In this document: positions 1,253 to 19,058 of the stretch, one piece after another | Position numbering within the stretch: the first letter of the stretch is position 1 | Layout: every line of letters starts with the position of its first letter | Assembly (NCBI RefSeq): GCF_002742625.1 | Contig: NZ_PEBF01000001.1 | Location: forward strand, 3,968,001 to 4,032,000 | Source: Caulobacter sp. FWC2 | GTDB lineage: Bacteria; Pseudomonadota; Alphaproteobacteria; Caulobacterales; Caulobacteraceae | Reading direction: 5' to 3' | Length of the DNA: 64,000 bases | Translations under genes and position numbers: made by a program | The notes under the pieces: model-generated | Databases searched by the model: none | The model's input: the letters and a program-made list of their open reading frames with translations, nothing else | What the model was told of the DNA's origin: nothing

Positions 1253-1266
1253 GTTACTTGCATAAC
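1253..1266 (+). promoter_or_regulatory. CTTKCATAA regulon motif, site 1
   Basis: GTTACTTGCATAAC, ending 69 bases before the GTG start of the acyl-CoA ligase gene. It is the most symmetrical copy (GTTA/TAAC arms) of a motif that recurs before transcription units up to 19.1 kb. Whether it is an operator or a promoter element cannot be decided here. Confidence 0.5.
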
Positions 1267-1335
1267 GATACGAACACGACCTGAGAGGCGGCGACGGCTC
1301 CAGGGCTGAAAGACCCGTCGCCTCAGGAGGAAGCC

Positions 1336-3024
1336 GTGCGTCCAAGCCCCCCGGAGCGTGTCGCGGAGTATCGCCGGCTGGGCTGGTGGAGCGGCCGCAC
1401 CATCGACCAGCTGTTCGCCGACGCCGTCCGCGCCCGTACCGACGAGATCGCTCTGGTCGACGCCCCCAACCGCATGGCGCTGACCGGCTCCGCGCCCCAG
1501 AGCCTGACCTTCCGCGAGGCCAACGCCCGCGTCGACACGCTGTGCCAGGTGCTGGCCGGCGTGGGCGTGGGACGTGGCGACATCGTCTCCACCCAGCTGC
1601 CCAACGTCGTCGAGGGGGTGCTGTGCTTCCTAGCCTGCGCCCGGATGGGCGCGATCCTCAGCCCGCTGGCCATGACCTATCGCGCCCACGAGCTGCGCCA
1701 GATCCTGCCGAGCATCGATCCGAAGGTGGCAATCACGCTCGACCGCTTCCATGGCTTCGACCACGTGGCGATGATTGCCGGCTTGCGGGCCGAAGGCGCG
1801 ACCTCGGCCCAGATCATCACCCTGTCGGACGGCTCGACCAACGGCGCGTATAGCCTGACCGACCTCGCCGCCAAGGCTTCGCCAGAGCCCTTTGCCTCGC
1901 CAGCCGACCTCGACGCCGCCGAGGCCCTGACCATCTGCTGGACCTCGGGCACCGAGGCCATGCCAAAGGGCGTGCCGCGCCACCACGACCACTGGGTGGT
2001 CAACGGCGAGGCCCTGGTCGAGGCCGCAGGACTGCGGACCGGCGACGCAATCCTCAACCCCTTCCCGCTGATCAACATCGCCGCGATCGGCGGCATGGTC
2101 ATGACCTGGCTGCTGTGCCAGGGCCGGCTGGTCCAGCACCATCCCTTCGACCTGCCGCTGTTCCTGCGACAGATGCAGGACGAGAAGATCACCTACACCG
2201 TAGCGCCGCCGGCGGTGCTGACCATGCTGCTGCAGAACGAGGCGCTGCTGGCGAACCTGGATCTTTCCAACCTGCGATGCATGGGTTCGGGCTCCGCGCC
2301 GCTGCCGCCCTGGATGGTGCGCCGCTGGCAGGAACAGTACGGCGTGACGATCATGAACGTGTTCGGCTCGAACGAGGGCGCATCGCTGTTCTCGACGGCG
2401 ACCGCCATTCCCGATCCCGAGCAGCGGGCCATGTACTTCCCACGCTTCGGCGCGCCGGGCGTGGACTGGCCAGCCGCATTCCCGGGCAAGATCCGCACCC
2501 GCCTGGTCGACCTGGCCACCGGCGAGGACATCGTCGCGCCCGGCCGCGAGGGCGAGCTGCGGATCTCCGGCGCCATGACCTTCGACGGCTACTGGAACGC
2601 GCCGGAGGTGACCAAGGCCGCGTTCGACGATGAGGGCTTCTTCCGCACCGGCGACCTGTTCGAGATCGCGCCCGACACGGACGATCGCTTCTATCGGTTC
2701 GTGGGCCGCAGCAAGGAGATCATCATCCGCGGCGGGCTGAACATCTCGCCAGCCGAACTGGATGGGCTGATCGAAAGCCATCCCGCCGTGCGCGAGGCCT
2801 GCTGCGCGGCCTATCCCGACGAGCGACTTGGCGAGCGCGTCTGCGCGGTCGTCGCCCTGCGGCCGGACCAGGCGCTGACGCTGGAGGAGCTCACCGCGCA
2901 CCTCAGGGCGCGCGAGCTGGCCACCTTCAAGCTGCCGGAGAAGCTGCGCATCGTCGACGCCCTGCCCCGCAACGCCCTGGGCAAGGTGGTCCGGCGCGAC
3001 CTGGCGGGGGTGGCGGCTACTTAA
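1336..3024 (+). CDS. AMP-dependent acyl-CoA synthetase/ligase
   Basis: A 562-residue ANL-superfamily enzyme expected to activate a carboxylic acid to its CoA thioester through an acyl-adenylate. The ATP-binding loop TSGTEAMPKGV lies near residue 205, an adenine-contact block VFGSNEG near 345, the hinge GRSKEIIIRGGLNISPAELD near 460, and the C-terminal catalytic lysine in NALGKVVRRDL. It starts at GTG 1336, five bases after a strong AGGAGG. It resembles cyclohexanecarboxylate/fatty-acid CoA ligases; the substrate is unknown. It forms its own transcription unit behind the CTTKCATAA motif and is likely the entry ligase, or a second ligase, of the neighbouring degradation pathway. Confidence 0.88.
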   Translation: MRPSPPERVAEYRRLGWWSGRTIDQLFADAVRARTDEIALVDAPNRMALTGSAPQSLTFREANARVDTLCQVLAGVGVGRGDIVSTQLPNVVEGVLCFLACARMGAILSPLAMTYRAHELRQILPSIDPKVAITLDRFHGFDHVAMIAGLRAEGATSAQIITLSDGSTNGAYSLTDLAAKASPEPFASPADLDAAEALTICWTSGTEAMPKGVPRHHDHWVVNGEALVEAAGLRTGDAILNPFPLINIAAIGGMVMTWLLCQGRLVQHHPFDLPLFLRQMQDEKITYTVAPPAVLTMLLQNEALLANLDLSNLRCMGSGSAPLPPWMVRRWQEQYGVTIMNVFGSNEGASLFSTATAIPDPEQRAMYFPRFGAPGVDWPAAFPGKIRTRLVDLATGEDIVAPGREGELRISGAMTFDGYWNAPEVTKAAFDDEGFFRTGDLFEIAPDTDDRFYRFVGRSKEIIIRGGLNISPAELDGLIESHPAVREACCAAYPDERLGERVCAVVALRPDQALTLEELTAHLRARELATFKLPEKLRIVDALPRNALGKVVRRDLAGVAAT

Positions 3025-3034
3025 GCCCATTGGA

Positions 3035-3047
3035 GACTTGCATAAGC
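3035..3047 (+). promoter_or_regulatory. CTTKCATAA regulon motif, site 2
   Basis: GACTTGCATAAGC ends 53 bases before the ATG of the first tandem HxlR regulator. It suggests that this regulator belongs to, and may autoregulate within, the regulon. Confidence 0.4.
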
Positions 3048-3100
3048 GCACCTGTTCCGCGACCCTGATCGTTGATTAGTCACGGTCAGGACACGGAGCG

Positions 3101-4060
3101 ATGAGCGCCCCGAAATTCATCAGGACTTGCTCGATCTGGCGCGCGCTGGAGGTGGTCGGGGACACGGCGGTGCTGCTGATCCTCGAGGCCAACTGGATCG
3201 GCGCGCGACGCTTCGACGACCTGCGCGACCGCACCGGCCTGCTGCAATCCAAGCTCAGCGACCGCCTCAAGAAGCTGGTCGCCGCCGAGGTTCTGGAGAA
3301 GAGCGCCTATTCGACCAGCCCGCCGCGCTACGAATACCGGATGACCCGCAAGGGCCTGGACCTCTACTGGCCGGCTCTGATGATGCTGCGCTGGGAGCGA
3401 CGCTGGTCGAACAGCCCCGGCAAGCTGCGACTGAACCTGCGCCACCGCACCTGCGGCCACCTGTTCGAGCCGGTCCCGACCTGCCTGAAGTGCGGCGACG
3501 AGATCAATCCGCGAGAGGTCGACTGGGCCGAAGGTCCCGGCGTGGGCTGGATGGTCCCGCTCTACAGCCGCCGTCGCCAGCAGCGCAACGCGGCCGAGGA
3601 GTCGTCCAGCCTGATGGTCGACGTCGCCCAGATCACCGGCGACCGCTGGGCCAGCCTGGTGCTTCGCTCGATCTTCACGGGGCTTCGGCGCTTCGACGAG
3701 ATCCATCGCGACACCGCCATGGCGACCAACATCCTGTCCGAGCGGCTGGCCTGGCTGACAGCCCAGGGCGTGATCCGCGCCCACGAGCGGGCCGGCAAAC
3801 GCTTCGAATACCGGCTGACCGAGAAGGGCCTCGACTACTACCCCGTCCTGCTGATGCTGCTGCAGTGGGGCGACAAATATTACGTCTCGCCCGAGGGGCC
3901 GCCGCTGATCCTGCGCCACAAGGTCGGCGGACACCTGCTGGAGCCGGCCGTGACCTGCTCGTGCTGCGGCCAGCCGGTCGAGCCGCACGACGTCTCGTTC
4001 GAGATCATCGAGGCCGAACAGCGCCCGCCCGAACGCGCGAATCCGGAGCCGGCGCACTAA
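3101..4060 (+). CDS. Tandem HxlR-type winged-helix transcriptional regulator (copy 1)
   Basis: A 319-residue protein made of two consecutive HxlR winged-helix domains (about residues 10-115 and 165-270), each followed by a short cysteine-containing tail; the pairs are CLKCG after domain 1 and CSCCG after domain 2. Most HxlR proteins are single domains of 100-150 residues that act as dimers, so this fused form probably provides both halves of a dimer. A second 319-residue protein of the same design is encoded at 11101-12060. A CTTKCATAA motif lies 53 bases upstream. Function as regulator of the surrounding catabolic genes is inferred from context. Confidence 0.85.
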   Translation: MSAPKFIRTCSIWRALEVVGDTAVLLILEANWIGARRFDDLRDRTGLLQSKLSDRLKKLVAAEVLEKSAYSTSPPRYEYRMTRKGLDLYWPALMMLRWERRWSNSPGKLRLNLRHRTCGHLFEPVPTCLKCGDEINPREVDWAEGPGVGWMVPLYSRRRQQRNAAEESSSLMVDVAQITGDRWASLVLRSIFTGLRRFDEIHRDTAMATNILSERLAWLTAQGVIRAHERAGKRFEYRLTEKGLDYYPVLLMLLQWGDKYYVSPEGPPLILRHKVGGHLLEPAVTCSCCGQPVEPHDVSFEIIEAEQRPPERANPEPAH

Positions 4061-4081
4061 GACGCGCCGGCCGTGGATTTC

Positions 4082-4094
4082 ATACTTTCATAAC
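4082..4094 (+). promoter_or_regulatory. CTTKCATAA regulon motif, site 3
   Basis: ATACTTTCATAAC ends 40 bases before the start of the four-gene DapB-like/SDR/thiolase/CoA-ligase transcription unit. Confidence 0.45.
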
Positions 4095-4134
4095 GAGACT
4101 TACCGGGTTAGGGTCTCCTCAATAGGGAGGAGAC

Positions 4135-5199
4135 ATGACGTATCGCGTCATCCAGTGGGCGACGGGCGCCATGGGCAAGAGCTGCCTGCGGACGGTGATC
4201 GACCACCCGTCGACGGATCTCGTGGGGCTGTATGTCTATGGCGAGGCCAAGGCGGGCCGCGACGCGGGCGACATCGCCCGGCGCGGCGCCACGGGCGTGC
4301 TGGCCACCCGTGACATCGATGAGATCCTGGCGCTGGACGCCGACGTGGTGATCCACGCCGCCCGCCTGGCGCCGCCCTACGGCTCGCACGACGCCGAGAT
4401 CCTGGCCCTGCTGGCCAGCGGCAAGAACGTCATCAGCATCAACGGTTACAGCGATCCCAGCCACTGGGGCGACGCGCGATTGGCCGCCCTGGAAGCGGCC
4501 TGCGCCAAGGGCGGCTCGACCCTGATGGGCGCAGGGCTGAACCCCGGCTTCGCGGCCGAACAGCTGGCGGCGGTCGCCAGCGGCGTCTGCTCCCAGCTCG
4601 ACGCGATCGAGGTGATCGAGAGCGTGGATTGCCGCGCGGTCCGCAGCCCTGATTATGTCTTTGGGGTGCTGGGCTTTGGCCTCGATCCCACGTCGATCAA
4701 TCCCAACGATCCCGACTGGGGCCCGGCCTCGTCGCTGAATGGCATGTACGCCGAGGCGCTGTCGGCCCTGGCCAAGCGGCTGAACCTGACGCTGGAGCGG
4801 ATCGACACCGACCACCGCGTGTTCGGCGCCTGGCAGGACCTCTCGATCGCTGCGGGTACGATTGCGCAAGGAACGATCGGCCACGTCAACTGGCGCTGGA
4901 TCGGTCGCGCCGAAGGCGGCCGCGAGCTGATCATCTCGATCCACTGGTTCATGGAGACGGCGCACCTGGAGAGCCAGGCCCCTCCCCTGTGGAGCGTGCG
5001 CCTGACCGGCCAGCCCAGCGTGCGCATCACCCTCGACCTGGACAAGCGCCCCGGCGACCAGACCCCGACCTCGGCCGAGCAGTGGGCCGTCGCCGGCAGC
5101 GTGATCAACGCCATCCCCCACGTCGTGGCTGCCCCGCCGGGCGTCATGACCCGCCCCCTGGCCACCCCGTTCGACGGAGCCTTGGCGCGAAGAGCCTGA
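4135..5199 (+). CDS. Dihydrodipicolinate reductase-like NAD(P)-dependent dehydrogenase
   Basis: 354 residues with an N-terminal Rossmann fold (YRVIQWATGAMGK, glycine-rich loop at residues 11-15), then blocks such as DVVIHAARLAPPYG and GAGLNPGFAAEQLAAV typical of the DapB-like family that also includes 2,4-diaminopentanoate dehydrogenase. It is much longer than true DapB (about 270) and is not in a lysine operon, so lysine synthesis is unlikely. Such proteins occur in actinobacterial and proteobacterial steroid or terpenoid degradation clusters, where their reaction is mostly unassigned. It has a GGAGGAG ribosome site and is the first gene of a unit running to 9195. Confidence 0.75.
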   Translation: MTYRVIQWATGAMGKSCLRTVIDHPSTDLVGLYVYGEAKAGRDAGDIARRGATGVLATRDIDEILALDADVVIHAARLAPPYGSHDAEILALLASGKNVISINGYSDPSHWGDARLAALEAACAKGGSTLMGAGLNPGFAAEQLAAVASGVCSQLDAIEVIESVDCRAVRSPDYVFGVLGFGLDPTSINPNDPDWGPASSLNGMYAEALSALAKRLNLTLERIDTDHRVFGAWQDLSIAAGTIAQGTIGHVNWRWIGRAEGGRELIISIHWFMETAHLESQAPPLWSVRLTGQPSVRITLDLDKRPGDQTPTSAEQWAVAGSVINAIPHVVAAPPGVMTRPLATPFDGALARRA

Positions 5200-5254
5200 G
5201 ACTGAACGAGACCCACGTCGGCGACACGATCGACGGGAAACGAAGGAGGACACG

Positions 5255-6139
5255 ATGAGCCAGCAAGACGGTCCGCACGCCGGTCGCGTCGTCATCGTCA
5301 CCGGGGCCGGCAAGGGTCTTGGGCGCGCCTATGCGCTGGATCTGGCGCGCCAGGGCGCGGCCGTGGTGGTCAACAACCGCTGGGCTCTGCGCAGCGAGCC
5401 TTCCAGCGCCCAGCAGGTGGTCGAGGAAATCCAGGCCATCGGCGGCAGGGCGGTCGCGGACTTTGGCGAGGCCGAGAATCCCGAGACCGGGCAGTCCCTG
5501 GTCGACAAGGCGCTCGAAACCTTCGGCCGCCTCGACGCCATCGTCTCGAACGCCGGCGTGCCCCAGACCTGCCGGCTGCACCGCCAGAGCCCCGAAGCCT
5601 TCCAGTCGATCTTCGACATCAATTTCCAGGGCGCGCTGAGCCTGGTGCAAGCCGCATGGCCGGTGCTGTCCGAAACGGGTTCGGGCCGCATCGTGCTCAG
5701 CGCCTCGTCGGCCGGTCTCTATGGCGGCGACGGCATGGCGGCCTATGCCTCGTCGAAGGCGGCGCTGATCGGGCTGGTGCGCGGCTTGGCGGTCGAGGGG
5801 CGTCCGCGCGGCCTGCAGATCAACGCCATCGCCCCCTACGCGGCCACCGCCATGACCACGCCGCACCTGAGCAGCGCCCTGGCGCGACGCATGGACCCGT
5901 CCGACGTGGCGCCGCTGGTGTCGTGGCTGGTCAGCGAGGCCTGCGACGTCTCGGGCCAGACCCTGGTCTCCGGCGGCGGGCGCCTGCGCGCGGCCTATGC
6001 GGTGGAAGGCCCGCCCGTGGCCCTGGACGACGACATCGGCGCGGCGGTGGCTCGCGCCCTCACGGCCGAGCCGCGAGAAACCTACGGCGACGCCCACGCG
6101 GCGTTCGCCGCCTTCATGGACGAGCGGCCGACGGCCTGA
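5255..6139 (+). CDS. SDR family oxidoreductase (hydroxyacyl-CoA dehydrogenase-like)
   Basis: 294-residue short-chain dehydrogenase. The cofactor loop TGAGKGLG sits at about residues 14-21, the structural NAG is in VSNAGVP, and the catalytic pair is YASSK. The VNNRW stretch after the second strand and the extended C-terminus resemble the dehydrogenase part of peroxisomal-type multifunctional enzyme 2, which oxidises 3-hydroxyacyl-CoA. The AAGGAGG ribosome site is 55 bases after the previous stop. With the thiolase and CoA ligase downstream it fits one round of beta-oxidation-like side-chain cleavage. Confidence 0.82.
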   Translation: MSQQDGPHAGRVVIVTGAGKGLGRAYALDLARQGAAVVVNNRWALRSEPSSAQQVVEEIQAIGGRAVADFGEAENPETGQSLVDKALETFGRLDAIVSNAGVPQTCRLHRQSPEAFQSIFDINFQGALSLVQAAWPVLSETGSGRIVLSASSAGLYGGDGMAAYASSKAALIGLVRGLAVEGRPRGLQINAIAPYAATAMTTPHLSSALARRMDPSDVAPLVSWLVSEACDVSGQTLVSGGGRLRAAYAVEGPPVALDDDIGAAVARALTAEPRETYGDAHAAFAAFMDERPTA

Positions 6140-6187
6140 ACCGAATAACAATCGGCGGCCCGCGAGCCGCCCGGCGAGGAGACAGAG

Positions 6188-7408
6188 ATGGTCTACATAC
6201 TTGGCGGCTGGCAGACCGATTTCGCCAGCAACTGGGCCCGGCAGAACATGGACCTGGCTGACGCCTTCAGCAAGGTCGTCGGTAAGGGCCTCGACAGCGT
6301 CGGCCTGGATCCGAAGGACATCGAGACCGGCCACGTCGGCAATTTCGTCAGCGAACTGTTCGCCCACCAGGGCCTGCTGGGCGGCTTCTTCGGTCTCGTT
6401 CATCCCGATTTCGACGGCCTGCCGACCGCGCGCCACGAGGCCGCCTGCGCCTCGGGCAGCGTCGCCATCCTAGCGGCCACCGCCGAGATCGAGGCCGGCC
6501 GCTATGACCTGGCCTGCGTGGTCGGGCTGGAGCAGATGCGCAATGTCAGCGGCCAGACGGCGGCCAACTATCTGGGCGCCGCGGCCTGGACCGGCCATGA
6601 GTTCGCCGACGCCACCTATGTCTGGCCCCGCGCCTTCTCTGACCTGGCCGAGGAATACGAGCGCCGCTACGGCCTGAAGTACGAGCACCTGATGCGGATC
6701 GCGGAGATCAACTTCGCCAACGCCAAGCGCAATCCCAACGCCCAGACCCGCCAGTGGGCCTTCAACGCCAAGAGCTTCACGGCCGACGACGAAGCCAATC
6801 CGGTGGTCGAGGGCCGCACGCGCAAGCAGGACTGCGGCCAGGTCACCGACGGCTCGGCGGTGATCTTCCTGGCCTCGGAGAAGCGCGCCGCCGAATACGC
6901 CGCCAAACGGGGCGTCCCGCTGGAGAGCCTGCCCCGGATCAAGGGCTGGGGCCACCGCTCAGCGCCGATCTCCTACTCGGCCAAGGTCCGCGCCAGCGCC
7001 GACCAGGAGTACGTCTTTCCGCAGGTGCGCCGCGCCATCGAGGACGCCCGTCGCCGCGCCGGCGTCTCGGACCTTGGCGAGATCGACGTGGTGGAGACCC
7101 ACGACTGCTTCACCACCACCGAATACATGGCCATCGACCACCTGGGCCTGACCGCGCCGGGCGAGGCCTGGAAGGCGATCGAGGCCGGTGACATCGAGAT
7201 CGGCGGCCGCCTGCCGATCAACCCCTCGGGCGGGCTGATCGGCCTGGGCCATCCGGTCGGCGCCACCGGCGTGCGCATGGCGCTGGACGCCTTCAAGCAG
7301 GTCACGGGCCAGGCCGGCGACTACCAGGTCGAGGGCGCCAAGACCTGCCAGACGCTCAATATCGGCGGCTCGACCACCACCACTGTCAGCCTGGTCGTCG
7401 GAGTCTGA
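6188..7408 (+). CDS. Acetyl-CoA acetyltransferase, SCP-x type thiolase
   Basis: 406-residue thiolase-superfamily protein, predicted to cleave a 3-ketoacyl-CoA (or run the reverse condensation). The nucleophilic cysteine lies in HEAACASGS (about Cys87) and the active-site histidine in GGLIGLGHPVGATG. The C-terminal end (KTCQTLNIGGSTTT) differs from classical degradative thiolases and matches the sterol-carrier-protein-x-like branch, which often acts on bulky or branched acyl-CoAs. GAGGAGA precedes the ATG. The next gene starts two bases after its stop, so translation is probably coupled. Confidence 0.87.
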   Translation: MVYILGGWQTDFASNWARQNMDLADAFSKVVGKGLDSVGLDPKDIETGHVGNFVSELFAHQGLLGGFFGLVHPDFDGLPTARHEAACASGSVAILAATAEIEAGRYDLACVVGLEQMRNVSGQTAANYLGAAAWTGHEFADATYVWPRAFSDLAEEYERRYGLKYEHLMRIAEINFANAKRNPNAQTRQWAFNAKSFTADDEANPVVEGRTRKQDCGQVTDGSAVIFLASEKRAAEYAAKRGVPLESLPRIKGWGHRSAPISYSAKVRASADQEYVFPQVRRAIEDARRRAGVSDLGEIDVVETHDCFTTTEYMAIDHLGLTAPGEAWKAIEAGDIEIGGRLPINPSGGLIGLGHPVGATGVRMALDAFKQVTGQAGDYQVEGAKTCQTLNIGGSTTTTVSLVVGV

Positions 7409-7410
7409 CC

Positions 7411-9195
7411 ATGGACCAAGCCGTGCTCGACAAGACGCTGGCGCCGTTCCGCCCCGCCGAGCTGATGCCGATCGACCTGGACGTGACGCACCGCGACGAC
7501 GGGGCGATCCTGATCGCCTCGCGCATCCCCTTGGCGGCGTACAACGCCAACCTGCCCGACGCCTTCGCCGAGCGCGCGGCGACCAGCGGCGACAAGGCCG
7601 CCCTGGCCTTCCGCGAGGGCGAGGGCTGGCGCTACGTCTCCTATGCCGACCTCAAGCGCGACATGGACGCGGCGACCCAGTGGCTGCTGGGCGCGACCGC
7701 CGGGCCGGTGCTGATCCTGGCGCCCAACAGCGCCGCCTTCGCGGTGATGACCTTCGCCGCCCAGGCCTCGGGCCGCGCCGTCTGTCCGGTCAGCGTCACC
7801 TACGCCGCCCTGGGCGGGGATTTCGGCCGGCTGGCCCATGTCATCGCCAAGGTCCGCCCGGCCGTGGTGTTCGCCGAGGACACCCGCGCCTGCGCGGCGG
7901 CGCTACAGCACCTGGACCTGGGCGAGGCGGTGATCGTCACCACCAACCCGGCCGACCTTTCCAAGCCCTCGGTCGCCTATGCCGACCTTCTAGCCACGAC
8001 GCCGACGCCCGCTGTGGCGGCCAGCATCGCGGCGCTGAAGCCCGACGACCGCGCGGCCCTGATGCTGACCTCCGGCTCGACTGGCCTGCCCAAGGTCGTG
8101 CCGATCACCTTCCGGAACCTGGCGGCCAACAGCATCCAGTGCATGCAGACCATCGGCAAGGCGGCCGGCTGGGACAATGTCATGCTGGACTGGCTGCCCT
8201 GGCACCACGCCGCCGGGGCCTTCGTCCTGCGCGCCACCCTGCTGGAAGGCGGGACGCTGCATGTCGACGAGGGCAAGCCCGTGCCGGGCCTGTTCGACGC
8301 CTCGGTGCGGAACCTGCGCGACGTCTCCGTCCGCTATTTCAACAACGTGCCCCTGGGCTACGCCATGCTGGCCGACGCCCTGGAGCAGGACGCCGTTCTG
8401 CGGAAGACCTTCTTCAAGGACATGCGCCTGATGCTGTATGGCGGCGCCGGCCTGTCCCAGACGGTCTACGACCGCATCCAGGCCATGGCCGTGCGCGAGA
8501 CCGGCCATCGGATCATGATGACCAGCGGCTACGGCATGACCGAGACCGTCTCGGCCTTCATGGTCATCCACTTCGAGACCGACAAGGTGGGCCTAGGTCT
8601 GCCCGCGCCGGGGTCGCTGGTGAAGCTGTGGCCGGTCGGCGACCGCTACGAGGTCCGGGTCAAGGGTCCCCAGGTCACGGCCGGCTATCTGGACGAGCCG
8701 GAGAAGACGGCGGAAGCCTTCGACGAGGAAGGCTTCTACCGCACCGGGGATCTCGCCCTATTTCACGACCCCAGCGATCCCGCCCAGGGCCTGGTGTTCG
8801 CCGGCCGCGCGGCCGAGGAGTTCAAGCTGTCCAGCGGCACATGGGTCTATGGCGGCGCCCTGCGCGACGGCCTGCTGAAGGCCCTGTCACCGCATGTCAC
8901 CGATCTGGTCCTGTGCGACGACGGCCGGCCCTATCTGGGCGTGATGCTGTGGGCCAAGCCCGATGCGCCGCGCACACTTCTCGAGGAAGGCCTGGCGGTC
9001 TTCAGTCGCAGCCAGTCCGGCGGCGCGGCGCGCGTGCGCCGGGCCCTGGTGCTGCGCGAACCGCCCAGCCCCAACGCCCACGAGATCTCGGACAAGGGCA
9101 CCATCAACCGCCGGGCGGTCATCGACCGTCGGGCCGCCGAGGTCGAGCGCCTGTTCGCGGACGATCCCGACGCCGAGGTGATGGTCATTTCCTGA
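7411..9195 (+). CDS. Feruloyl-CoA synthetase-like AMP-dependent ligase
   Basis: 594-residue ANL enzyme. It has the ATP loop TSGSTGLPKVVP (near residue 228), GYGMTET (near 372) and FKLSSGTWVYGGALRDGLL (near 472); the last block, in place of the usual GRxKDxIKxxG hinge, is typical of the feruloyl-CoA synthase branch. Ferulate-type aromatic acids are therefore one possible substrate class, but no enoyl-CoA hydratase/lyase (Ech) or vanillin dehydrogenase is nearby, so the canonical ferulate pathway is not supported. It is the last gene of the 4135-9195 unit and is followed by a perfect 10-bp hairpin. Confidence 0.85.
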   Translation: MDQAVLDKTLAPFRPAELMPIDLDVTHRDDGAILIASRIPLAAYNANLPDAFAERAATSGDKAALAFREGEGWRYVSYADLKRDMDAATQWLLGATAGPVLILAPNSAAFAVMTFAAQASGRAVCPVSVTYAALGGDFGRLAHVIAKVRPAVVFAEDTRACAAALQHLDLGEAVIVTTNPADLSKPSVAYADLLATTPTPAVAASIAALKPDDRAALMLTSGSTGLPKVVPITFRNLAANSIQCMQTIGKAAGWDNVMLDWLPWHHAAGAFVLRATLLEGGTLHVDEGKPVPGLFDASVRNLRDVSVRYFNNVPLGYAMLADALEQDAVLRKTFFKDMRLMLYGGAGLSQTVYDRIQAMAVRETGHRIMMTSGYGMTETVSAFMVIHFETDKVGLGLPAPGSLVKLWPVGDRYEVRVKGPQVTAGYLDEPEKTAEAFDEEGFYRTGDLALFHDPSDPAQGLVFAGRAAEEFKLSSGTWVYGGALRDGLLKALSPHVTDLVLCDDGRPYLGVMLWAKPDAPRTLLEEGLAVFSRSQSGGAARVRRALVLREPPSPNAHEISDKGTINRRAVIDRRAAEVERLFADDPDAEVMVIS

Positions 9196-9200
9196 CGCCA

Positions 9201-9230: not shown

Positions 9231-9231
9231 A

Positions 9232-9244
9232 TCACTTTCATAAA
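9232..9244 (+). promoter_or_regulatory. CTTKCATAA regulon motif, site 4
   Basis: TCACTTTCATAAA ends 43 bases before the ATG of the DUF1295 gene, directly behind the terminator-like hairpin, and so marks a new transcription start region. Confidence 0.42.
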
Positions 9245-9287
9245 AAGATCAAGACGCGCGCCGCGGCGCGCCGAACGGGGGAAGGCG

Positions 9288-10097: not shown

Positions 10098-10099
10098 GC

Positions 10100-11041
10100 A
10101 TGGCGCTTCCGGCCAACCTCCTAGACCGGCTGAAGGTCCCGGCGATCGCCGCGCCGATGTTCCTGGTGTCCGGGACCGACATGGTGCTGGCCGCCTGCCG
10201 GGCCGGGATCATCGGCTCCTTCCCGGCCAACAACGCCCGCACCCTGGATGACCTCGACGCCTGGATGAGCCTGATCGGCCGCGAACTGCCGGCCGACGCC
10301 CCGCCCTGGGCGATCAACATCATGGTCCACCGCTCCTACGCGCGGAAGGACGAGGAGCTGGAGCTGGTGCTCAAGCACAGGCCGCCGATCGTGATCACCG
10401 CCCTGGGCGCGCCTTCGGGCGTGGTCGACGCGATCCACGGCTATGGCGGCCTGGTCTTCGCGGACGTCAATTCGCTGACCCACGCCGAGAAGGCGGCGGC
10501 GGCCGGCGTCGACGGCCTGATCCTGGTGGCGTCGGGCGCCGGCGGGCATACCGGCCCGATCTCTGGCTTCGCCTTCGCCCCGGCGGTGCGCGAGATGTTC
10601 GACGGGACCATCGTGCTGGGCGGCGGCATCGGCAGCGGCCGCGCGATCCTGGCGGCCAGAGCGCTGGGCGCGGACCTGGCCTATCTCGGCACCCGCCTGA
10701 TCGCCTGCGCCGAAAGCATGGCCCAACCGGAATACAAGCAGATGCTGATCGACTCCCGGGCCGAGGACATCGTCACCTCGGCGGCCCTGACCGGCATTCC
10801 GGCCAACTGGTTGCGCCAGAGCCTGATGGCGGCCGGCTACGATCCAGCGTCCCTGACCGGCCGCGCCGAGATCCAGCTGGGCCGCCCAGAGGACTCGGCC
10901 AAGCGCTGGCGCGACGTCTGGGCGGCGGGCCATGGCGTCGGCGAGGTCAAGGCGATCGAGCCGCTGGCCGCGATCATCGAGACCCTGGCCGCCGACTACG
11001 AACGCTGCCGCGCGACGGTGGGCGCCGACCGGCGAGCTTGA
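10100..11041 (+). CDS. Nitronate monooxygenase family FMN-dependent protein
   Basis: 313-residue TIM-barrel flavoprotein of the 2-nitropropane dioxygenase group: N-terminal PAIAAPMFLVSG, VASGAGGHTG (catalytic histidine, about residues 155-164) and the FMN phosphate block VLGGGIGSGRAI (near 174). Members include true nitronate monooxygenases and FMN-dependent enoyl reductases or oxidases. ATG 10100 is two bases after the DUF1295 stop, so the two are probably co-translated and may act in sequence on one substrate. Nitronate detoxification is not suggested by any neighbour. Confidence 0.8.
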   Translation: MALPANLLDRLKVPAIAAPMFLVSGTDMVLAACRAGIIGSFPANNARTLDDLDAWMSLIGRELPADAPPWAINIMVHRSYARKDEELELVLKHRPPIVITALGAPSGVVDAIHGYGGLVFADVNSLTHAEKAAAAGVDGLILVASGAGGHTGPISGFAFAPAVREMFDGTIVLGGGIGSGRAILAARALGADLAYLGTRLIACAESMAQPEYKQMLIDSRAEDIVTSAALTGIPANWLRQSLMAAGYDPASLTGRAEIQLGRPEDSAKRWRDVWAAGHGVGEVKAIEPLAAIIETLAADYERCRATVGADRRA

Positions 11042-11100
11042 TAGAGAGGGCGGCGCGATGGCTATCGACCTTCCGCCGCCCTCGCCAGATACGGGACCTC

Positions 11101-12060
11101 ATGGCCGAAGACAGTCCGTCGGAAACGATCTCTCCGCGCCCGCTGAACCAGTTGGTGCAGGCCAATTCGGCTACGCGGGCCCTGAACGTGGTGGGGGATC
11201 GCTGGACGCTGATGATCCTCTATCTGGCGTTCCAGCGGGTTCGGCGGTTCGACGATTTCCAGGCGCGGATCGGCCTGGCGCGCAGCCTGCTGACCGACCG
11301 CCTCAAGCGCCTGCAGGCGGCCGGCGTCATGGTCCGCACGCCCTATGCCGAACGCCCCAACTGGTTCGAATACCGACTGACCGAGATGGGCCGCGACCTC
11401 TACAGCGTCGCGCTGGCCATCATCGGCTGGGAGAAGCGCTGGTTCTACGACCCGGCCAATCCCGGTCACCGCCTGCGTCATAGCTGCGGAGCGGAGTTCA
11501 CGCCTGTGCTGGCGTGCGGCCATTGCGGCGAGGTCCTGACGGTCCGCAACGTCATCGTCGAGCCAGGCCCCGGCGCCGGCTATGAGCCCTCTGCCCCGCC
11601 GCGCGCCCAGCGCCGGTCGATCGTTCCGTCGGAGGGTCTGAACAAGGGCAATCCGATGCTTGACCGCGCCTTCCAGGTGCTGGGTGACCGCTGGACCAGC
11701 CATGTAATCGCCTCGGCTTTCGCGGGCCGGCGGCGGTTCGGTGACTTCCAGGAAGCGCTGGCCATCGCCCCCAACATCCTGACTGACCGCCTGGGACGGC
11801 TGGTCGAGCTGGGCATCCTGCAGCGGGAGCTCTACCAGACCCGGCCCGAGCGCTGGGAATACCGCCTGACCGATGAGGGCAAGGACCTGCACCCGCTGAT
11901 CATCGAGCTGAACCGCTGGGGCGACCGCTGGCTGGCGACGGAAGCCGGACCGCCCACGCTGATGCGGCACCGCACCTGCGGCGCCGTGCTGGAACCGCGC
12001 ATGACCTGCGACCAGTGCGGCGGGCCGGCGGACCTGACGACCGTCCGGCCGCCCGCCTAA
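11101..12060 (+). CDS. Tandem HxlR-type winged-helix transcriptional regulator (copy 2)
   Basis: With the ATG at 11101 this protein has 319 residues, exactly like the regulator at 3101, and the same two-domain HxlR plan. Each repeat carries a near-identical core (LNVVGDRWTLMILYLAF and FQVLGDRWTSHVIASAF) and a cysteine tail (CGHCG, CDQCG). Upstream in-frame starts exist back to a TTG at 11038 overlapping the previous stop, but the family match begins after 11101. It is the third gene of the DUF1295/NMO unit, and its end overlaps the convergent NTF2 gene by four bases. Likely a paralogue by gene duplication. Confidence 0.82.
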   Translation: MAEDSPSETISPRPLNQLVQANSATRALNVVGDRWTLMILYLAFQRVRRFDDFQARIGLARSLLTDRLKRLQAAGVMVRTPYAERPNWFEYRLTEMGRDLYSVALAIIGWEKRWFYDPANPGHRLRHSCGAEFTPVLACGHCGEVLTVRNVIVEPGPGAGYEPSAPPRAQRRSIVPSEGLNKGNPMLDRAFQVLGDRWTSHVIASAFAGRRRFGDFQEALAIAPNILTDRLGRLVELGILQRELYQTRPERWEYRLTDEGKDLHPLIIELNRWGDRWLATEAGPPTLMRHRTCGAVLEPRMTCDQCGGPADLTTVRPPA

Positions 12061-13000: not shown

Positions 13001-13009
13001 CGGCCCCTC

Positions 13010-13048
13010 AAAAAGAAAGCGCCGGACAGCCCCTAAGGCCGCCGGCGC
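13010..13048 (-). terminator. Intrinsic terminator after TonB receptor 1
   Basis: On the minus strand GGCGCCGG and CCGGCGC (13019-13048) enclose a GC-rich loop and are followed by TTTCTTTTT (13010-13018), a standard Rho-independent signal. Confidence 0.7.
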
Positions 13049-13060
13049 CAGGATAGGGAG

Positions 13061-15364
13061 TTAGAACTTGGTCGAAAGCTCGACGCCGAAGGTGCGCGGC
13101 GCGCCGAACGACGACACCGCATCGCCCAGGATGTCGATGATGTTGGTGCGGTAGACCTTGTCCGTCAGGTTGCGCCCCCAGACCGAGACCGCCCACGGCT
13201 TGTCCGCCGGCGACAGGCTGATGCGGCCATCGAGCAGACCGTAGGGCTTTTCATACTGAACCGTGTCCGGGGCCCAGAACATCTTGCCCTGCTTCTTGTA
13301 GGCCAGCTTGAAGTGCAGCGCGTCCTCAAGCCCGAAGGCCGAGGTCGTGTACTCGGCGCTGGCCGACAGCTGGTACTTCGGCGTCCGCTGCATGAAGTTG
13401 TCGTTGTACGAGATCTTGGTCACCGGATCGACGAAGTCCGTGTACTTGGCGTCTAGGATCGAACCGCCCAGCGCCAGGCGCAGACCCTGCATCGGCGCGA
13501 TCTGGAACTCCGACTCCACGCCCTTGATCTCGGCGGCGCCGGCGTTGGAAATCACGTTGCACAGGCAGGTGCCGTCGGTGCGCTGCACCTGCAGGTCGGT
13601 GTAGTCCATGAAGAACACCGAAGTGTTCCACCGCGCGCGGCGGTCCAGGAACTCCCACTTGTAGCCGGCTTCGTAATTGGTGACCGACTCCGGGCGGTAG
13701 GGTTGTTGCGCGGCGAACGCGTTCGGCGCGTCGTTCTGGAAGCCACCGCCCTTGAAGCCCACCGAGACCGTGGCATAGGCCATGAAGTCGTCGTTCGGCG
13801 TCCAGGTCAGGGTGGCCTGCGGGGTGACCTTCGACCACTTCTGGGCATAGGGCGTGAAGAAGCCGTTCGCGTCGGTCAGCGGGGTCAGCGGAACCTTGTC
13901 GTTGGGGTTCAGCTTGTCGCCCAGGGCGATCGCCCTGCCCTCCTGGGTGCCGCTCTTCTTGTCGCGCGTGTAGCGGACACCGGCTTCCAGCTTCACCGTG
14001 TCGGTAAACTTGTAGCCGAGTTGGGCGAAGACGGCGATGTCGCGGTTCAGGCCGTGGTCATCCCAGTAGCTCTCCCCCGACAGCGAGGGCAGCACCGTGC
14101 TCTCGCCCCAGAAGCGGTTGGTCTGACGCACCTTGTTGTGCAGGTAGAAGCCGCCGACGATCCAGTCGAAGCGGCTGTTGTCGTAGTGCGAGGTCAGGCG
14201 CACTTCCTGGGTGAACTGGGCGATATCCTCGACGAAGTTCACCGGCTCGGCGAACAGCAGCGGGGTGACGACGCCATAGCCGTTGCTCGGACCGACGCCC
14301 GACTGATCGTACAGCGTGAACGCCTGACCGCCTCGATAGCCGGTCACCGAGGTGAAGCCGACATCCGGGAAGATGTCCTTGTCGACCTTCAGGATGAAGC
14401 TGGCCGACTCGTGCTGAACGCGTTGGCGGGTCGGGGCGGCGTCGCCCTTGAACTGCGGCCACATCGGCAGGCTCTCGCGGATCGAGAGGCCGCCACGGAT
14501 GGCGGCGATGGCCAGGCGGGCCTTGTACCAGGGCGCGAAGCACTGGGCCGGCGTGGTGCAGGTCGTCTCGCCCATGCCGACGCGGTTGGGGCCGTTGCTG
14601 GTATCCCAATTGTAGTCGGCGATGAAGTGGACGCGCAGGTCGCTGCCCTCGGGCTTGTAAAGCAGCTGACCGCGGATTTGCTTGGAGTCCAGGTCCTCCA
14701 GATCGACATCGTGCAGGATGTCCTTGGCGTAGCCGGAGTGGTTGATCGTCTGGAACGACAGGCGGCCCGCCAGGTTGCTGGTGATCGGACCGGTCACGTG
14801 GCCCGTGGTCTGTTGCAGGTTGTAGTTGCCGAAGGTCACGGCGACCTGACCGCTATAGTCGAACCGCGGCGCAGCCGAGATGACGCTGATGGCGCCGCCG
14901 GCGACGTTCTTGCCCAGCACCACGCCCTGCGGACCGCGGATCAGCTCGACCCGGTCGATGTCGTAGAAGGACGTGTTCAGGTTGCCCGAGCGGCTGACAT
15001 AGACGTCATCGACGAAGGTCGAGACCGACTGGTCGGCGGTCGGCGCCGACAGGCGGGTGTTGACCACGCCGCGGATATTGAGCTCCAGCGCCTGGGGCGA
15101 GTTCTGGGTGAAGGACAGGCCGACGGTCGCGTGGCCCAGGTCCTCGGAGTTCATGATCTTGTCGCGCGCCAGGGTCTCGCCGCCGACGGCCGAGATCGAA
15201 AGGGGCGCCTGCTGCAGGTTCACTTCGCGCTTTTGCGCGGTGACCAGCAGTTCCTCGAGGGTGTTCTGCGGCGCGGTCTGATCGGCCGAAGCGGCGAGCG
15301 CGGGCGCGGCGAAACCGACCCCCGCGATGAGCGCGATGATGGAAGCGGATCTCTTGAGATGCAT
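13061..15364 (-). CDS. TonB-dependent outer-membrane receptor 1
   Basis: 767 residues: Sec signal peptide ending APALA (about residue 24), plug domain (about 35-160; LEELLVTAQKREVNLQQAP, VELIRGPQGVVLGKN) and a 22-strand beta-barrel ending in aromatic F (ELSTKF). Expected to bring a large or scarce ligand across the outer membrane using TonB energy. The GGGGAGGAA ribosome site supports ATG 15364. It is transcribed away from an NTF2-like gene; the shared 450-base upstream region carries two copies of the CTTKCATAA motif. Context suggests uptake of the hydrophobic substrate degraded by this block rather than a siderophore. Confidence 0.92.
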   Translation of the reverse strand: MHLKRSASIIALIAGVGFAAPALAASADQTAPQNTLEELLVTAQKREVNLQQAPLSISAVGGETLARDKIMNSEDLGHATVGLSFTQNSPQALELNIRGVVNTRLSAPTADQSVSTFVDDVYVSRSGNLNTSFYDIDRVELIRGPQGVVLGKNVAGGAISVISAAPRFDYSGQVAVTFGNYNLQQTTGHVTGPITSNLAGRLSFQTINHSGYAKDILHDVDLEDLDSKQIRGQLLYKPEGSDLRVHFIADYNWDTSNGPNRVGMGETTCTTPAQCFAPWYKARLAIAAIRGGLSIRESLPMWPQFKGDAAPTRQRVQHESASFILKVDKDIFPDVGFTSVTGYRGGQAFTLYDQSGVGPSNGYGVVTPLLFAEPVNFVEDIAQFTQEVRLTSHYDNSRFDWIVGGFYLHNKVRQTNRFWGESTVLPSLSGESYWDDHGLNRDIAVFAQLGYKFTDTVKLEAGVRYTRDKKSGTQEGRAIALGDKLNPNDKVPLTPLTDANGFFTPYAQKWSKVTPQATLTWTPNDDFMAYATVSVGFKGGGFQNDAPNAFAAQQPYRPESVTNYEAGYKWEFLDRRARWNTSVFFMDYTDLQVQRTDGTCLCNVISNAGAAEIKGVESEFQIAPMQGLRLALGGSILDAKYTDFVDPVTKISYNDNFMQRTPKYQLSASAEYTTSAFGLEDALHFKLAYKKQGKMFWAPDTVQYEKPYGLLDGRISLSPADKPWAVSVWGRNLTDKVYRTNIIDILGDAVSSFGAPRTFGVELSTKF

Positions 15365-15815
15365 GTCATTCCTCCCCGGGGACCTGCGCCGATCGATCGG
15401 TCTTGGAGTCCCTTGTGTTGACGACCGGGCAAGCCCGGGTGGTTGCGGCTCGAGGGGGTGGCGCGCTGCTGGGGCGGTGTCGTGCTCGCGACGGCCGAGG
15501 CCATATAACGTTCGCTTGCATAACAGAAAGACATCGAATGGAACACGAGATCGCGGCGATCAGCACGACGACATCGTGAAAGCCCCTGTGAAGCGCTTCC
15601 CTCTCCTGTTTCAAGGCTCTTGAACGGCCTATGTGGCGAGAATTGATCTTTTAGTCTCGTAACGCAAGTGTCTATTTTGGGGGCCAGGACCACCGCCCTT
15701 CGCCCCACGGTCGGGGTCGACAGGCGCGCACGCCTGACATTAAGTACGGTTATGAAAGTTCAAAAGAACAATGCCGGCTCCAGCCAAGCTTGAAGCCGAT
15801 TTCAGGGAGAGAACC
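15365..15815. promoter_or_regulatory. Divergent promoter region with two CTTKCATAA motifs
   Basis: 451 bases between the TonB receptor and an NTF2-like gene, without a credible gene. It holds TCGCTTGCATAAC (15512-15524, plus strand) and, on the minus strand, GAACTTTCATAACC (15748-15761), the latter 54 bases before ATG 15816. A weaker minus-strand variant, ACTTGCGTTAC, ends at about 15660. This is the densest cluster of the motif in the window. Confidence 0.45.
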
Positions 15816-16226: not shown

Positions 16227-16238
16227 CGCGACACAAAA

Positions 16239-16265
16239 AGGGCGGGCCCCGCGAAGGACCCGCCC
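16239..16265 (-). terminator. Terminator between convergent NTF2-like genes
   Basis: The hairpin GGCGGGCCC...GGACCCGCC (about 16241-16263) is followed on the minus strand by CTTTTTGTG, giving a good intrinsic terminator for the carotenoid-oxygenase/SDR/NTF2 operon. In the plus direction it has no U-tract. Confidence 0.6.
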
Positions 16266-16304
16266 CAGTCTCGCGGCGCGATAGGAAAGGCCGCGGATCT
16301 CTCG

Positions 16305-16706
16305 TCAGCGACCGAACGGACGCAGGGCCGCCGACTTGGCCGAGTCCAGATACTCGTCCAGCCGCGTGATCAGGCCGTTCTCGATCTTGATGACCACGCA
16401 GGCGTCCATCGCCCAGCGCTCGCCATTGGGCAGGGTGGCCTCCAGCACGTGCTGCTGCACAAAGCCGTCGGGCAGCGCCTCGACGCGCAGGACGCGATAG
16501 TTGCGGTCAGGCAGGGTCTTCACGAACCAGGCCAGCACCTTGAGGTTCTGGTCGACGGTCTGCTCGATATTGTCGGTGTTGTGCCACAGCTTGGCGTCGG
16601 GCGCGTAGAAGGCCCGGACGGCTTCACCGTCCCCGTCCTGGATGGCGGCCACGAAGCGCTTGGCGAAATCCACATAGTCCATTTTTGGGGTGTCGGGCTT
16701 GGACAT
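16305..16706 (-). CDS. SnoaL-like NTF2-fold protein
   Basis: 133 residues, SnoaL_2-like: FAKRFVAAIQDGDGEAVRAFYAPDAKLWHNTDN at the N-terminal half and VIKIENGLITRLDEYLD at the end. It belongs to a different subgroup from the other four NTF2 proteins nearby and lacks their R-x-D pair. No signal peptide. The GAGGAGC ribosome site supports ATG 16706, nine bases after the SDR stop, so it is the third gene of the carotenoid-oxygenase operon. Could be an isomerase or cyclase-type enzyme acting on the cleavage product; function not assignable. Confidence 0.78.
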   Translation of the reverse strand: MSKPDTPKMDYVDFAKRFVAAIQDGDGEAVRAFYAPDAKLWHNTDNIEQTVDQNLKVLAWFVKTLPDRNYRVLRVEALPDGFVQQHVLEATLPNGERWAMDACVVIKIENGLITRLDEYLDSAKSAALRPFGR

Positions 16707-16715
16707 GAACGCTCC

Positions 16716-17474
16716 TCAGCGGCCAGTGGTGACGCGCTCGCCCGCCAGGGAGCGCCGCATTTGAAGTTCGAAGCCCTTCGGATCGCGGGCCAGACTGGCG
16801 CGCACGTCGATGGCCATGAAATCGGTGTCAACCTCGTCGGCCTTGCGCTTGATGGCCTTCAGGCCCGCCTCGGCGATGGTCGCGGGCGTCTCCTTGAAGC
16901 CCTCGACATGGCTGGCCATCCGCGTGTCGACCGAGCCGACGATCAGGGCGACGACATTGGTGTTCTGCGGGGCCAGTTCGGCGCGCAGGCAGGTGCTCAT
17001 CGCTCGCGCCGCGAACTTGGACGGGCTGTAGCCGCCCATGCCCGGCACCGCCACGAGGCCGCCGGCCGACAGCACGTTGACGATCGTGCTCTCCGGGCTC
17101 TTGGCCAGGATCGGCGCGAAGGCGCGGCTCATGCCCAGGGGGCCGAAATAGTTGACCTCCATCTCCAGCCGCGCGGTCTCCAGGTCAGGCGCCTTGAGCA
17201 GGGTCTGCATGCCGAACTGGCCGGCGTTGTTGACCACGATCGTGACGTCCTGGCATTGCGCGGCAGCGGCGGTGATCGTCTCGGGCTTGGTGACGTCCAG
17301 CGCGATGGCCACGACCTTGCCGCCGGCCTCGTCGACCAGATGCTGGGCGCTGGCGACGTCGCGCGCGCCGACATAGACCTTGGCCGCCCCGGCGGCGACG
17401 AACGCCCGCACGAAGGCTTCGCCGATGCCCCGGTTGCCGCCGGTCACCAGCGCGACGCTGTTCTTGATATCCAT
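16716..17474 (-). CDS. SDR family NAD(P)-dependent oxidoreductase
   Basis: 252-residue classical short-chain dehydrogenase: cofactor loop GGNRGIG (about residues 12-18), VVNNAG (about 79-84), catalytic Ser in VLSAGG and YSPSK (near 148). AGGAG precedes the ATG. It lies between the carotenoid-cleavage-type dioxygenase (25-base gap) and a SnoaL-like gene (9-base gap), so oxidation or reduction of the aldehyde or alcohol made by the dioxygenase is a reasonable guess. Confidence 0.83.
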   Translation of the reverse strand: MDIKNSVALVTGGNRGIGEAFVRAFVAAGAAKVYVGARDVASAQHLVDEAGGKVVAIALDVTKPETITAAAAQCQDVTIVVNNAGQFGMQTLLKAPDLETARLEMEVNYFGPLGMSRAFAPILAKSPESTIVNVLSAGGLVAVPGMGGYSPSKFAARAMSTCLRAELAPQNTNVVALIVGSVDTRMASHVEGFKETPATIAEAGLKAIKRKADEVDTDFMAIDVRASLARDPKGFELQMRRSLAGERVTTGR

Positions 17475-17499
17475 CTGAAACTCCTGGATTTCGACTCGT

Positions 17500-18978
17500 T
17501 CAGGCGGCGGCCACGCCGTCCCGGATGAAGGCCCGGTCGGCCCAGACGCTATGGGTGCCGCTGGACAGCTTGTGCGGCAGGGCGATCCGGACGACTGGCC
17601 CCTCCTCGAAGCGCTTGCAGTCGATCAGGATGCACTCGGACGTCTGCTTGTTCTCGTCGATGATGAAGCTGACGAGATAGCCGTCGTCCTCGTCCACCGC
17701 CCCGATGCGCGGCACGAACGGCGACTCGCTGGCGTAGCGCCCCTCCGGCAGGTTGACGCTCCAGGACTCGCCGGTCTCCAGGTCGTGCTTGACGAAGCCC
17801 GTGAACAGGAACCAGCCGGGCTTGGCGGCGGTCGAATAGGCGTAGCGATACGGCTTGCCTGCATAGCGCTGGTTGAACATGCCGAACTCGAGGATCCGCT
17901 CGTCCAGATGCTTCTCGGTGGTCTCGCCGGTTTTCAGGTTGAAGCGCCAGCGGTGCAGCTTGGGCTTGAAAGACTGCTCGTCCAGGAACGCCATCAGGTG
18001 GCCCATGCCCTCGGGCGCGTCGGCCAGCGGCGGCGGGGTCGGATCTTCCTGGAAGTAGCCGTCCATGACGATCTCGTCGCCGTCCTCATAGGCGTTGAGG
18101 AAGTGCAGGATGTAGGTCGGCGCGGCCTCGAACCAGCGGATCTCGTCCGAGCGTCCGTGGCGCGGAATGATCCCGAACCGTGACGGCAGGTGCCGGTGGA
18201 ACCGCGTGGCGTGGATGTTGCGCTTCAGCAGTTCCGCGTCCCAGAAGACCGGCAGGTCGTTGAGGATCGAATAGTTGGTCGTGAAGACCATGTCGTGCGG
18301 CAGGCGCGGCCCGGGCAGGTCGATCGGCACGTAGTGGGTCGTCTTGCCGTGCCGGTCGACCACGCCGTAGTGCATGTACGGCGCGTGCTTGGAGTAGTTG
18401 AAGAACAATAGCTCGCCGGTGGCCTCGTCGATCTTCGGGTGGGCCGAGACGCCGTCCAGCGGTCCCCAGCTGGCCACGCCGCCCTGCTCCAGGGTTTCCG
18501 GATCCAGCCAATAGGCCTCGCCGCACTGGTAGAAGGTCGAGACGATCTTGCCGCCGTGCACGACGACGTCGGTGGACGAAGCGTCCTTCATGCCGCCATG
18601 GCAGCCGAAGCCCGGCCGCGTCGAGACGCCCGGACCATCCATGAGCCCGCCCCACAGCGAGCGGCCGGCTTCCTGCTCGGCCTGGAAGCCGCGGGTGCGA
18701 ACGAATCGGTTGCGGTACTCGGCGCGCCCTTCGCGCAGGCTGATCATATGGACCATGCCGTCGCCGTCGAACGGGTGATAGCGGCCCAGCGGGCGGTGGA
18801 CCGGGTTCTCGGTGTTGCGGATGTAGACGCCGTCGATGTCTGTCGGGATCGCGCCCTCCAGCACGGTCAGGTCGGTGGCGTTGACCTCCTCGTGCTGAGG
18901 CGTCCACGGCCCGGACATATAGGGGTGATTGCTTTGCCCAAGCGTCGTCAGAACGGGGGGCAGGCGCTCCAGCTTCAT
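17500..18978 (-). CDS. Carotenoid oxygenase family (RPE65/lignostilbene-type) dioxygenase
   Basis: 492 residues, usual size for non-heme iron dioxygenases that cleave a carbon-carbon double bond of carotenoids, apocarotenoids or stilbenes into two carbonyls. The four iron-ligand histidines are visible in SAHPKID, LPHDMVF, ILHFLNA and SGTHSVW. The family N-terminal block GxYIRNTxNP...HPFDGDGMVH is present. ATG 18978 follows GGGAGA; longer upstream readings lack family similarity. First gene of an operon with an SDR and a SnoaL-like protein, and divergent from an exported NTF2 protein. The bacterial context favours a stilbenoid, phenylpropanoid or terpenoid substrate over pigment synthesis. Confidence 0.88.
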   Translation of the reverse strand: MKLERLPPVLTTLGQSNHPYMSGPWTPQHEEVNATDLTVLEGAIPTDIDGVYIRNTENPVHRPLGRYHPFDGDGMVHMISLREGRAEYRNRFVRTRGFQAEQEAGRSLWGGLMDGPGVSTRPGFGCHGGMKDASSTDVVVHGGKIVSTFYQCGEAYWLDPETLEQGGVASWGPLDGVSAHPKIDEATGELLFFNYSKHAPYMHYGVVDRHGKTTHYVPIDLPGPRLPHDMVFTTNYSILNDLPVFWDAELLKRNIHATRFHRHLPSRFGIIPRHGRSDEIRWFEAAPTYILHFLNAYEDGDEIVMDGYFQEDPTPPPLADAPEGMGHLMAFLDEQSFKPKLHRWRFNLKTGETTEKHLDERILEFGMFNQRYAGKPYRYAYSTAAKPGWFLFTGFVKHDLETGESWSVNLPEGRYASESPFVPRIGAVDEDDGYLVSFIIDENKQTSECILIDCKRFEEGPVVRIALPHKLSSGTHSVWADRAFIRDGVAAA

Positions 18979-19044
18979 CGAGGGTCTCCCAGTGGCGAGG
19001 CGACGTGACCGCGCCTCTTGCCACGACCCTAGCACCATGGTCTT

Positions 19045-19058
19045 GTTATGCAAGTAAT
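19045..19058 (-). promoter_or_regulatory. CTTKCATAA regulon motif, site 7
   Basis: On the minus strand ATTACTTGCATAAC, nearly identical to site 1. It lies between divergent starts: 66 bases from the carotenoid-oxygenase ATG and 43 bases from the exported NTF2 ATG, so it could serve both. Confidence 0.5.

Follow-up and report, generated by a model that had tools for sequence, protein, structure and literature searches.

A recurring nonamer, CTTKCATAA, in a block of catabolic genes of Caulobacter sp. FWC2 probably forms the left portion of a 21-bp operator that is recognised by two regulators encoded in the same block, HxlR1 (3101-4060, plus strand) and HxlR2 (11101-12060, plus strand; the ATG at 11101 is our own reading), each of which carries two HxlR domains in tandem. 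The window in which it was studied is the 64,000-nucleotide stretch from position 3,968,001 to 4,032,000 of contig NZ_PEBF01000001.1, and positions are numbered from its first letter. A regulon of uptake and breakdown genes under fused HxlR regulators is well supported by sequence comparison, because the sites cluster in the genome, are associated with tandem HxlR genes across 299 genomes, stand before unlinked orthologues and have a symmetric variant beside single-domain HxlR genes. The same four lines of evidence bear out the candidate regulon tied to the HxlR genes that had been proposed in an initial annotation of the window; its further suggestion, control by one of the tandem HxlR proteins, holds as regards the link to HxlR and needs amending in that both proteins are probably involved, each being itself a double-domain protein.

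The nonamer and the full site

All seven copies of the nonamer reported in the initial annotation were recovered at their positions in the window, compared with a mean of 0.07 in 100 dinucleotide shuffles, where the largest count was 2 and none reached 7. In the genome as a whole (5,511,152 bases in two contigs) there were nine copies, seven of them inside the window, and seven copies of a control pattern, the nonamer read backwards. On 25 named contigs that carry an HxlR1 relative (the nearest being that of Caulobacter sp. 602-1, with an HxlR1 97% identical), 48 nonamers versus 1 reversed control were counted in 418,908 bases, with at least one copy in every locus, and conservation in the alignment of these copies reached past the nonamer. 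In 60 stretches around tandem HxlR genes, picked without reference to the motif, 68 exact nonamers were found versus 1 control. The nonamer occurred in 13/13 loci with HxlR1 and HxlR2, 5/13 with HxlR2 only, 5/15 with an HxlR2-like protein (about 50-58%), 5/7 with HxlR1 only, 3/3 separate HxlR2 loci and 1/9 loci of 36-41% paralogues.

An iterated 26-column profile gave the consensus TnRCTTKcaTAAcgAgACTnA for the full site. It found 269 sites above 13 bits in 1.16 Mb, compared with 20 when its columns were reversed (a count from one iteration earlier), and a site above 12 bits was present in each of 62 loci; the sites of the 36-41% paralogues, which entered the set through the iteration, are the least certain in it. 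The nonamer was rejected as the whole motif, as relatives also keep T-3, A-1, A13, C14 and A17, and as two of the seven window copies are without the right part. It is a real recurring word, but only the left part of the site: five of the seven copies scored 25.9-35.6 bits, two were weak (3037+, 11.4 bits; 15515+, 13.3 bits), and three sites had been overlooked (15668-, 30.0 bits; 20831-, 20.4 bits; 20845-, 19.3 bits). No exact copy was found in the window past 19.06 kb, in agreement with the initial annotation, and beyond the 20831-/20845- pair the profile gave only weaker matches, at 38129+ (15.1 bits), 50556+ (12.5 bits) and 57117- (8.2 bits). Of the two nonamers of this genome outside the block, one scored 15.1 bits and the other below 14.

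A sequence-only profile, designated R1, was built from 61 of the profile sites and searched against the whole genome at E<=10 with a tool that pre-filters, so that weaker matches may have been missed. Six matches were returned, all within this 18-kb block: five of the seven nonamer sites and 15668-. The moderate site at 38129+ had no R1 match at this threshold. The likeness of CATAAC to a -10 hexamer, together with a TATAAT form in one clade of sites, could suggest that the word is a common housekeeping promoter element or recurs by chance. The probability of this is close to nil given the excess of nonamers over the shuffled expectation, the confinement of all six R1 matches in 5.5 Mb to one block and the finding of just 1 of 256 sites inside the body of a window-gene homologue. 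Reading the nonamer as a -10 element, which the initial annotation had itself raised, was ruled out by the genome-wide nonamer count and the R1 search, since the full site was not found elsewhere in the genome; nor did it occur before unrelated genes genome-wide.

Tandem HxlR proteins and the distribution of the site

HxlR1 and HxlR2 scored 106.4 and 145.4 bits, respectively, against PF01638 (Pfam cut-off 20.8), each in two stretches. Against the family criterion of one domain per chain in a homodimer, these proteins hold two domains per chain. The AlphaFold2 model of the whole HxlR1 chain was confident (predicted local distance difference test, pLDDT, 86.5; predicted template modelling score, pTM, 0.84) and has the winged-helix fold; its six best fold matches in the PDB (E<=0.001) were chains of PA1607 and PA1374. 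The 72 tandem proteins extracted fell into eight clusters. Of the two recognition-helix regions, the C-terminal one has A or S followed by [PST]NIL[STA][DE]RL in 22 of 23 listed rows, with one outlier, and the N-terminal one differs between clusters. A Cys-rich stretch (such as H-x2-CG...CxxCG), partly invariant in the alignment, follows each HxlR domain and looks like a zinc ribbon; in what is termed the fourth half of HxlR1, one Cys of the stretch is missing.

R1 was searched against 299 Caulobacteraceae genomes under filters stricter than those of the single-genome search, and 64 genomes had a match at E<=0.3. A genome was classed as tandem when a match ran across both HxlR domains, which applied to 79 of the 299 among the matches listed; on this basis the motif was present in 60 of 79 tandem-HxlR genomes versus 4 of the 220 others. 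When only genomes that had given the profile no stretches were counted, the motif was present in 14 of 23 with a tandem HxlR gene versus 4 of 220 without one (again among the matches listed). Of the 150 R1 hits listed, 122 had a tandem HxlR gene at most 12 kb away, 3 had one at a distance of 12-30 kb and 5 had one further off; for 16 the gene was on a different contig, and 4 came from genomes that have no such gene among the matches listed. In a class-wide sample of 337 genomes, 12 matched HxlR2 at E<=1e-38 and 7 (this genome included) did so over both domains in one stretch; seven stretches were taken from six such genomes outside the family set, and six had sites above 12 bits and one (L205) had none.

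Seventeen stretches were fetched around R1 hits remote from a tandem gene. Eight remote sites, in six Caulobacter genomes, stood upstream of orthologues of the window genes SDR2 (five sites) or carotenoid oxygenase (three sites), four of them 0.7-2.6 Mb away by contig coordinates and four on another contig. The distance was about 105 bases before the SDR2 orthologues, which are followed by NTF2 genes, and about 40 bases before the carotenoid oxygenase genes; the site is found before functionally linked genes also where these are unlinked to the regulator. Among the nine other remote loci, relatives of window genes were found beside the sites at L179, L182, L183 and L187, and at L181 a site lay upstream of a one-domain HxlR match.

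Symmetry, promoter context and mode of regulation

In 68 tandem loci the form TnACT-n-ACTnA was found 53 times at n=11, and twelve other spacings gave 0-5 occurrences each. In 40 loci selected for an HxlR match covering one domain (L214, aligned over 264 residues, may not be single-domain) this asymmetric form was absent at n=11, and the palindrome TnAGT-n-ACTnA was found 7 times at n=11 versus 2 in total at the twelve other spacings. Six of the seven palindromes, in as many loci (L215, L222, L235, L240, L243 and L247), preceded the HxlR match by 8-111 bases, and the seventh, also in L215, lay downstream of it. One and the same 21-bp frame thus occurs in a symmetric form near some single-domain genes and in an asymmetric form near fused ones.

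In its left half the site looks like a -35 element (TTKCAT). This likeness could account for part of the asymmetry and for the orientation of the sites, and it would also fit a different reader, be it an alternative sigma factor or some other regulator, with the HxlR genes as mere targets or neighbours. This is considered improbable. The association with tandem HxlR genes in the 299 genomes and the symmetric variant beside single-domain genes speak against it, and the conserved stretch, at 21 bp, exceeds a -35 element; position 0, a C in 97% of sites, lies outside TTKCAT. In addition, partial Pfam scans of two small loci, covering 10 of 13 (L120) and 10 of 16 (L105) predicted genes, found no regulator family besides HxlR in these 20 genes, the weak PadR/HTH_34 overlaps being on the same proteins as the HxlR matches.

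For 199 of 256 sites, a start codon accompanied by a ribosome-binding match was found within 160 bases downstream (median 59), compared with 36% of random places. The word TAnnnT was enriched at +23 (25 sites) and +24 (20 sites) over a background of 0.34%, with smaller peaks at +16 (13) and +29 (10). With respect to homologues of window genes, 120 of the 256 sites pointed only towards a gene, 107 lay between divergent genes, 13 pointed only away and 16 did neither. Each tandem HxlR protein, with two winged-helix domains per chain, is probably a pseudo-dimer folded from a single chain and would read TnACT-N11-ACTnA, whose geometry is that of an HxlR dimer site but whose halves are unlike. Its sites would often cover the -35 region of catabolic promoters and so repress them until a pathway metabolite, perhaps a coenzyme A (CoA) thioester, binds. 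That the proteins bind the sites and activate instead, aiding RNA polymerase at weak promoters, is rather unlikely, with points on each side. HxlR of Bacillus subtilis is a positive regulator according to PMC7835342, and one orientation is kept, as seen in the 120 sites pointing only towards a gene versus the 13 pointing only away. Where a -10-like word is seen, however, the site spans the -35 element and the spacer, at a normal spacing of 16-17 bp, which is a usual place of a repressor; many sites are without such a word. This placement in part of the promoters makes repression somewhat the better guess.

Genome comparison directly yields the full-length motif, the link between it and tandem HxlR genes, and the target genes; we infer binding, the pseudo-dimer, repression and an effector. 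Several observations weigh against the whole. The exact palindrome was missing in 34 of the 40 single-domain loci, and the dyad symmetry of the site is moderate, with a mean column correlation of 0.38 at centre +7 and 0.24 at the next best centre (the correlation of information profiles in the dyad test was 0.63, permutation p = 0.03). No R1 hit was obtained in 19 of the 79 tandem genomes, though under the stricter filters. Of the four motif genomes without a tandem gene among the matches listed, three are 61-80% complete and the fourth had a hit with an E-value of 0.28. The genomes are related, so that p-values overstate the association. Lone strong remote sites at L180, L184, L185 and L186 are without a clear target, L180 having only a 36% SDR as a relative of a window gene and the other three no window-gene match; they are possible further targets. 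A -10-like word at +23/24 was present in just 45 of the 256 sites, apart from the smaller peaks at +16 and +29.

Counted by locus, base +12 tended to differ with the regulator present: it was T in 25 of 33 cases where the locus had the HxlR1 cluster alone and G in 63 of 67 where it had the HxlR2 cluster alone. Some of the HxlR1 loci, however, belong to genomes with HxlR2 elsewhere, and the count was redone by gene and genome class. In HxlR1-only versus HxlR2-only genomes the base was 4 T versus 7 G before the DapB-like gene, 3 T versus 9 G for TonB, 3 T versus 9 G for the SCPx-type thiolase and 2 T and 1 A versus 7 G for DUF1295, where one genus makes up most of the HxlR1-only class, to which locus L179, from an incomplete genome without a tandem hit, was assigned by genus. 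The Fisher value for this contrast takes related genomes as independent and omits the A. Contrary to this, carotenoid oxygenase sites had G in both classes (4 and 13 sites), and further non-T bases in the HxlR1-only class were 1 G at SDR2, 1 G at NTF2a, 2 A at the second thiolase and 1 A at HxlR1. These exceptions led to the rejection of +12 as a clean T/G code. In two-regulator loci the DapB-like site had T in 12 of 14 cases, but G in the window, and TonB had 14 T and 14 G sites. The tendency towards T with HxlR1 and G with HxlR2 appears to be a lead, and only that because the HxlR1-only set is mostly one genus. A farther-reaching proposal, made tentatively and with slightly more doubt than trust, is that each fused HxlR acts as a single-chain heterodimer reading an oriented, asymmetric operator derived from the symmetric site by a change of AGT to ACT in one half. 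A single base, +12, would then settle which of the two paralogues acts where within one dispersed catabolic regulon, T marking a site for HxlR1 and G for HxlR2, and a promoter like that of TonB, with one site of each type, would be under joint control. Part of the asymmetry of the left half could also stem from a -35 element.

HxlR binds DNA as a dimer, as stated in PMC7835342. The single-domain HxlR/DUF24 regulators (7bzg, B. subtilis HxlR; 5hs7, YodB; 4a5m, HypR/YybR; 2f2e and 4gcv, PA1607 and PA1374 of Pseudomonas aeruginosa) share PF01638, and each half of the tandem protein is similar to them in sequence and fold; in contrast, the matches in the PDB (E<=0.01) were 14 sequences with lengths of 107-168 residues, compared with a two-domain chain of about 320 residues and an asymmetric site here. 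An engineered formaldehyde sensor, HxlR-cpYFP-HxlR, likewise has two HxlR units per chain, but it is man-made with identical units (PMC7835342), unlike the natural fusion with differing halves here. CouR, described in PMC4737184 as a MarR-type repressor of p-hydroxycinnamate catabolism, offers a possible model of a repressor of a CoA-dependent pathway that is released by a CoA thioester, but it belongs to another family and another pathway. No report of double HxlR proteins or of the 21-bp motif was found among the papers listed in a literature search mostly outside subscription journals, and the term HxlR is absent from PMC5343134. The HxlR proteins with solved structures that were found are single-domain, whereas in 79 of the 299 genomes, by our count, the domains are fused and free to diverge. 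Since matching sites occur in the same genomes, joint loss of symmetry in a DNA-binding pair and its operator is directly testable; the set also bears on how paralogues share out targets. In addition, it supplies a predicted regulon for a pathway of uptake and CoA-dependent catabolism that is poorly understood.

Sites and candidate targets in the window

The highest-scoring predicted operator (1254-1274, plus strand; 35.6 bits; R1 E-value 0.005 against the whole genome; T at +12) precedes the candidate target CoA ligase A (1336-3024, plus strand; PF00501), its core lying 79 bases from the GTG at 1336. A LacI-family regulator gene (136-1176) adjoins the block. The site before HxlR1 (3034-3054, plus strand) is weak, an exact nonamer with the left part only (11.4 bits, no R1 match), 64 bases from the ATG at 3101. 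Predicted operators with G at +12 and an R1 match precede the operon of DapB-like, SDR, thiolase and CoA ligase B genes (4082-4102, plus strand; 30.1 bits; 50 bases from the ATG at 4135) and that of the DUF1295, nitronate-monooxygenase-like and HxlR2 genes (9232-9252, plus strand; 30.9 bits; 53 bases from the ATG at 9288). Their candidate targets, assigned by domain matches, are at 4135-9195 and 9288-11041 (both plus strand). A site before the DapB-like gene was found in 13 of 13 HxlR1-locus stretches of group A; the protein itself (4135-5199), with a DapB_N domain, had a weak match to 2,4-diaminopentanoate dehydrogenase (72 bits versus a cut-off of 400).

The gap between the TonB-dependent receptor, a candidate target (13061-15364, minus strand; PF00593, PF07715), and the NTF2 gene contains two predicted operators on the minus strand, the overlooked one at 15651-15671 (30.0 bits, R1 match, G at +12) and one at 15741-15761 (25.9 bits, R1 E-value 1.03, T at +12), the latter (15758-) 394 bases upstream of the TonB ATG at 15364. 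A weak site at 15512-15532 on the plus strand (13.3 bits, no R1 match) is an exact nonamer with the left part only, 256 bases upstream of the NTF2 ATG at 15771. This left part, CTTGCATAA, is on the other strand from the two full sites and has no right part to go with it; the relatives L126, L130, L133, L137 and L145-L147 keep it in this gap as well. Carotenoid oxygenase, SDR and NTF2-like (SnoaL/NTF2) genes (16305-18978, minus strand; PF03055, PF00106, PF12680) are candidate targets of a predicted operator at 19037-19057 (minus strand; 30.9 bits; R1 match; G at +12), 76 bases from the ATG at 18978. The oxygenase resembles apo-carotenoid and lignostilbene dioxygenases, with scores far under their cut-offs. 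With start codons taken from our own reading of the sequence, three of the seven nonamers lie 40-70 bases before a start codon and five of seven lie at 50-79, a correction to the six at 40-70 bases given in the initial annotation.

Beyond these, a thiolase gene (19588-20796, minus strand; PF00108, PF02803) is a candidate target of two predicted operators on the minus strand, at 20814-20834 (20.4 bits, T at +12) and 20828-20848 (19.3 bits, G at +12), neither with an R1 match. The two overlap with a 14-bp offset upstream of the gene start at 20796, and ACT occurs three times at 14-bp steps within 20814-20848.

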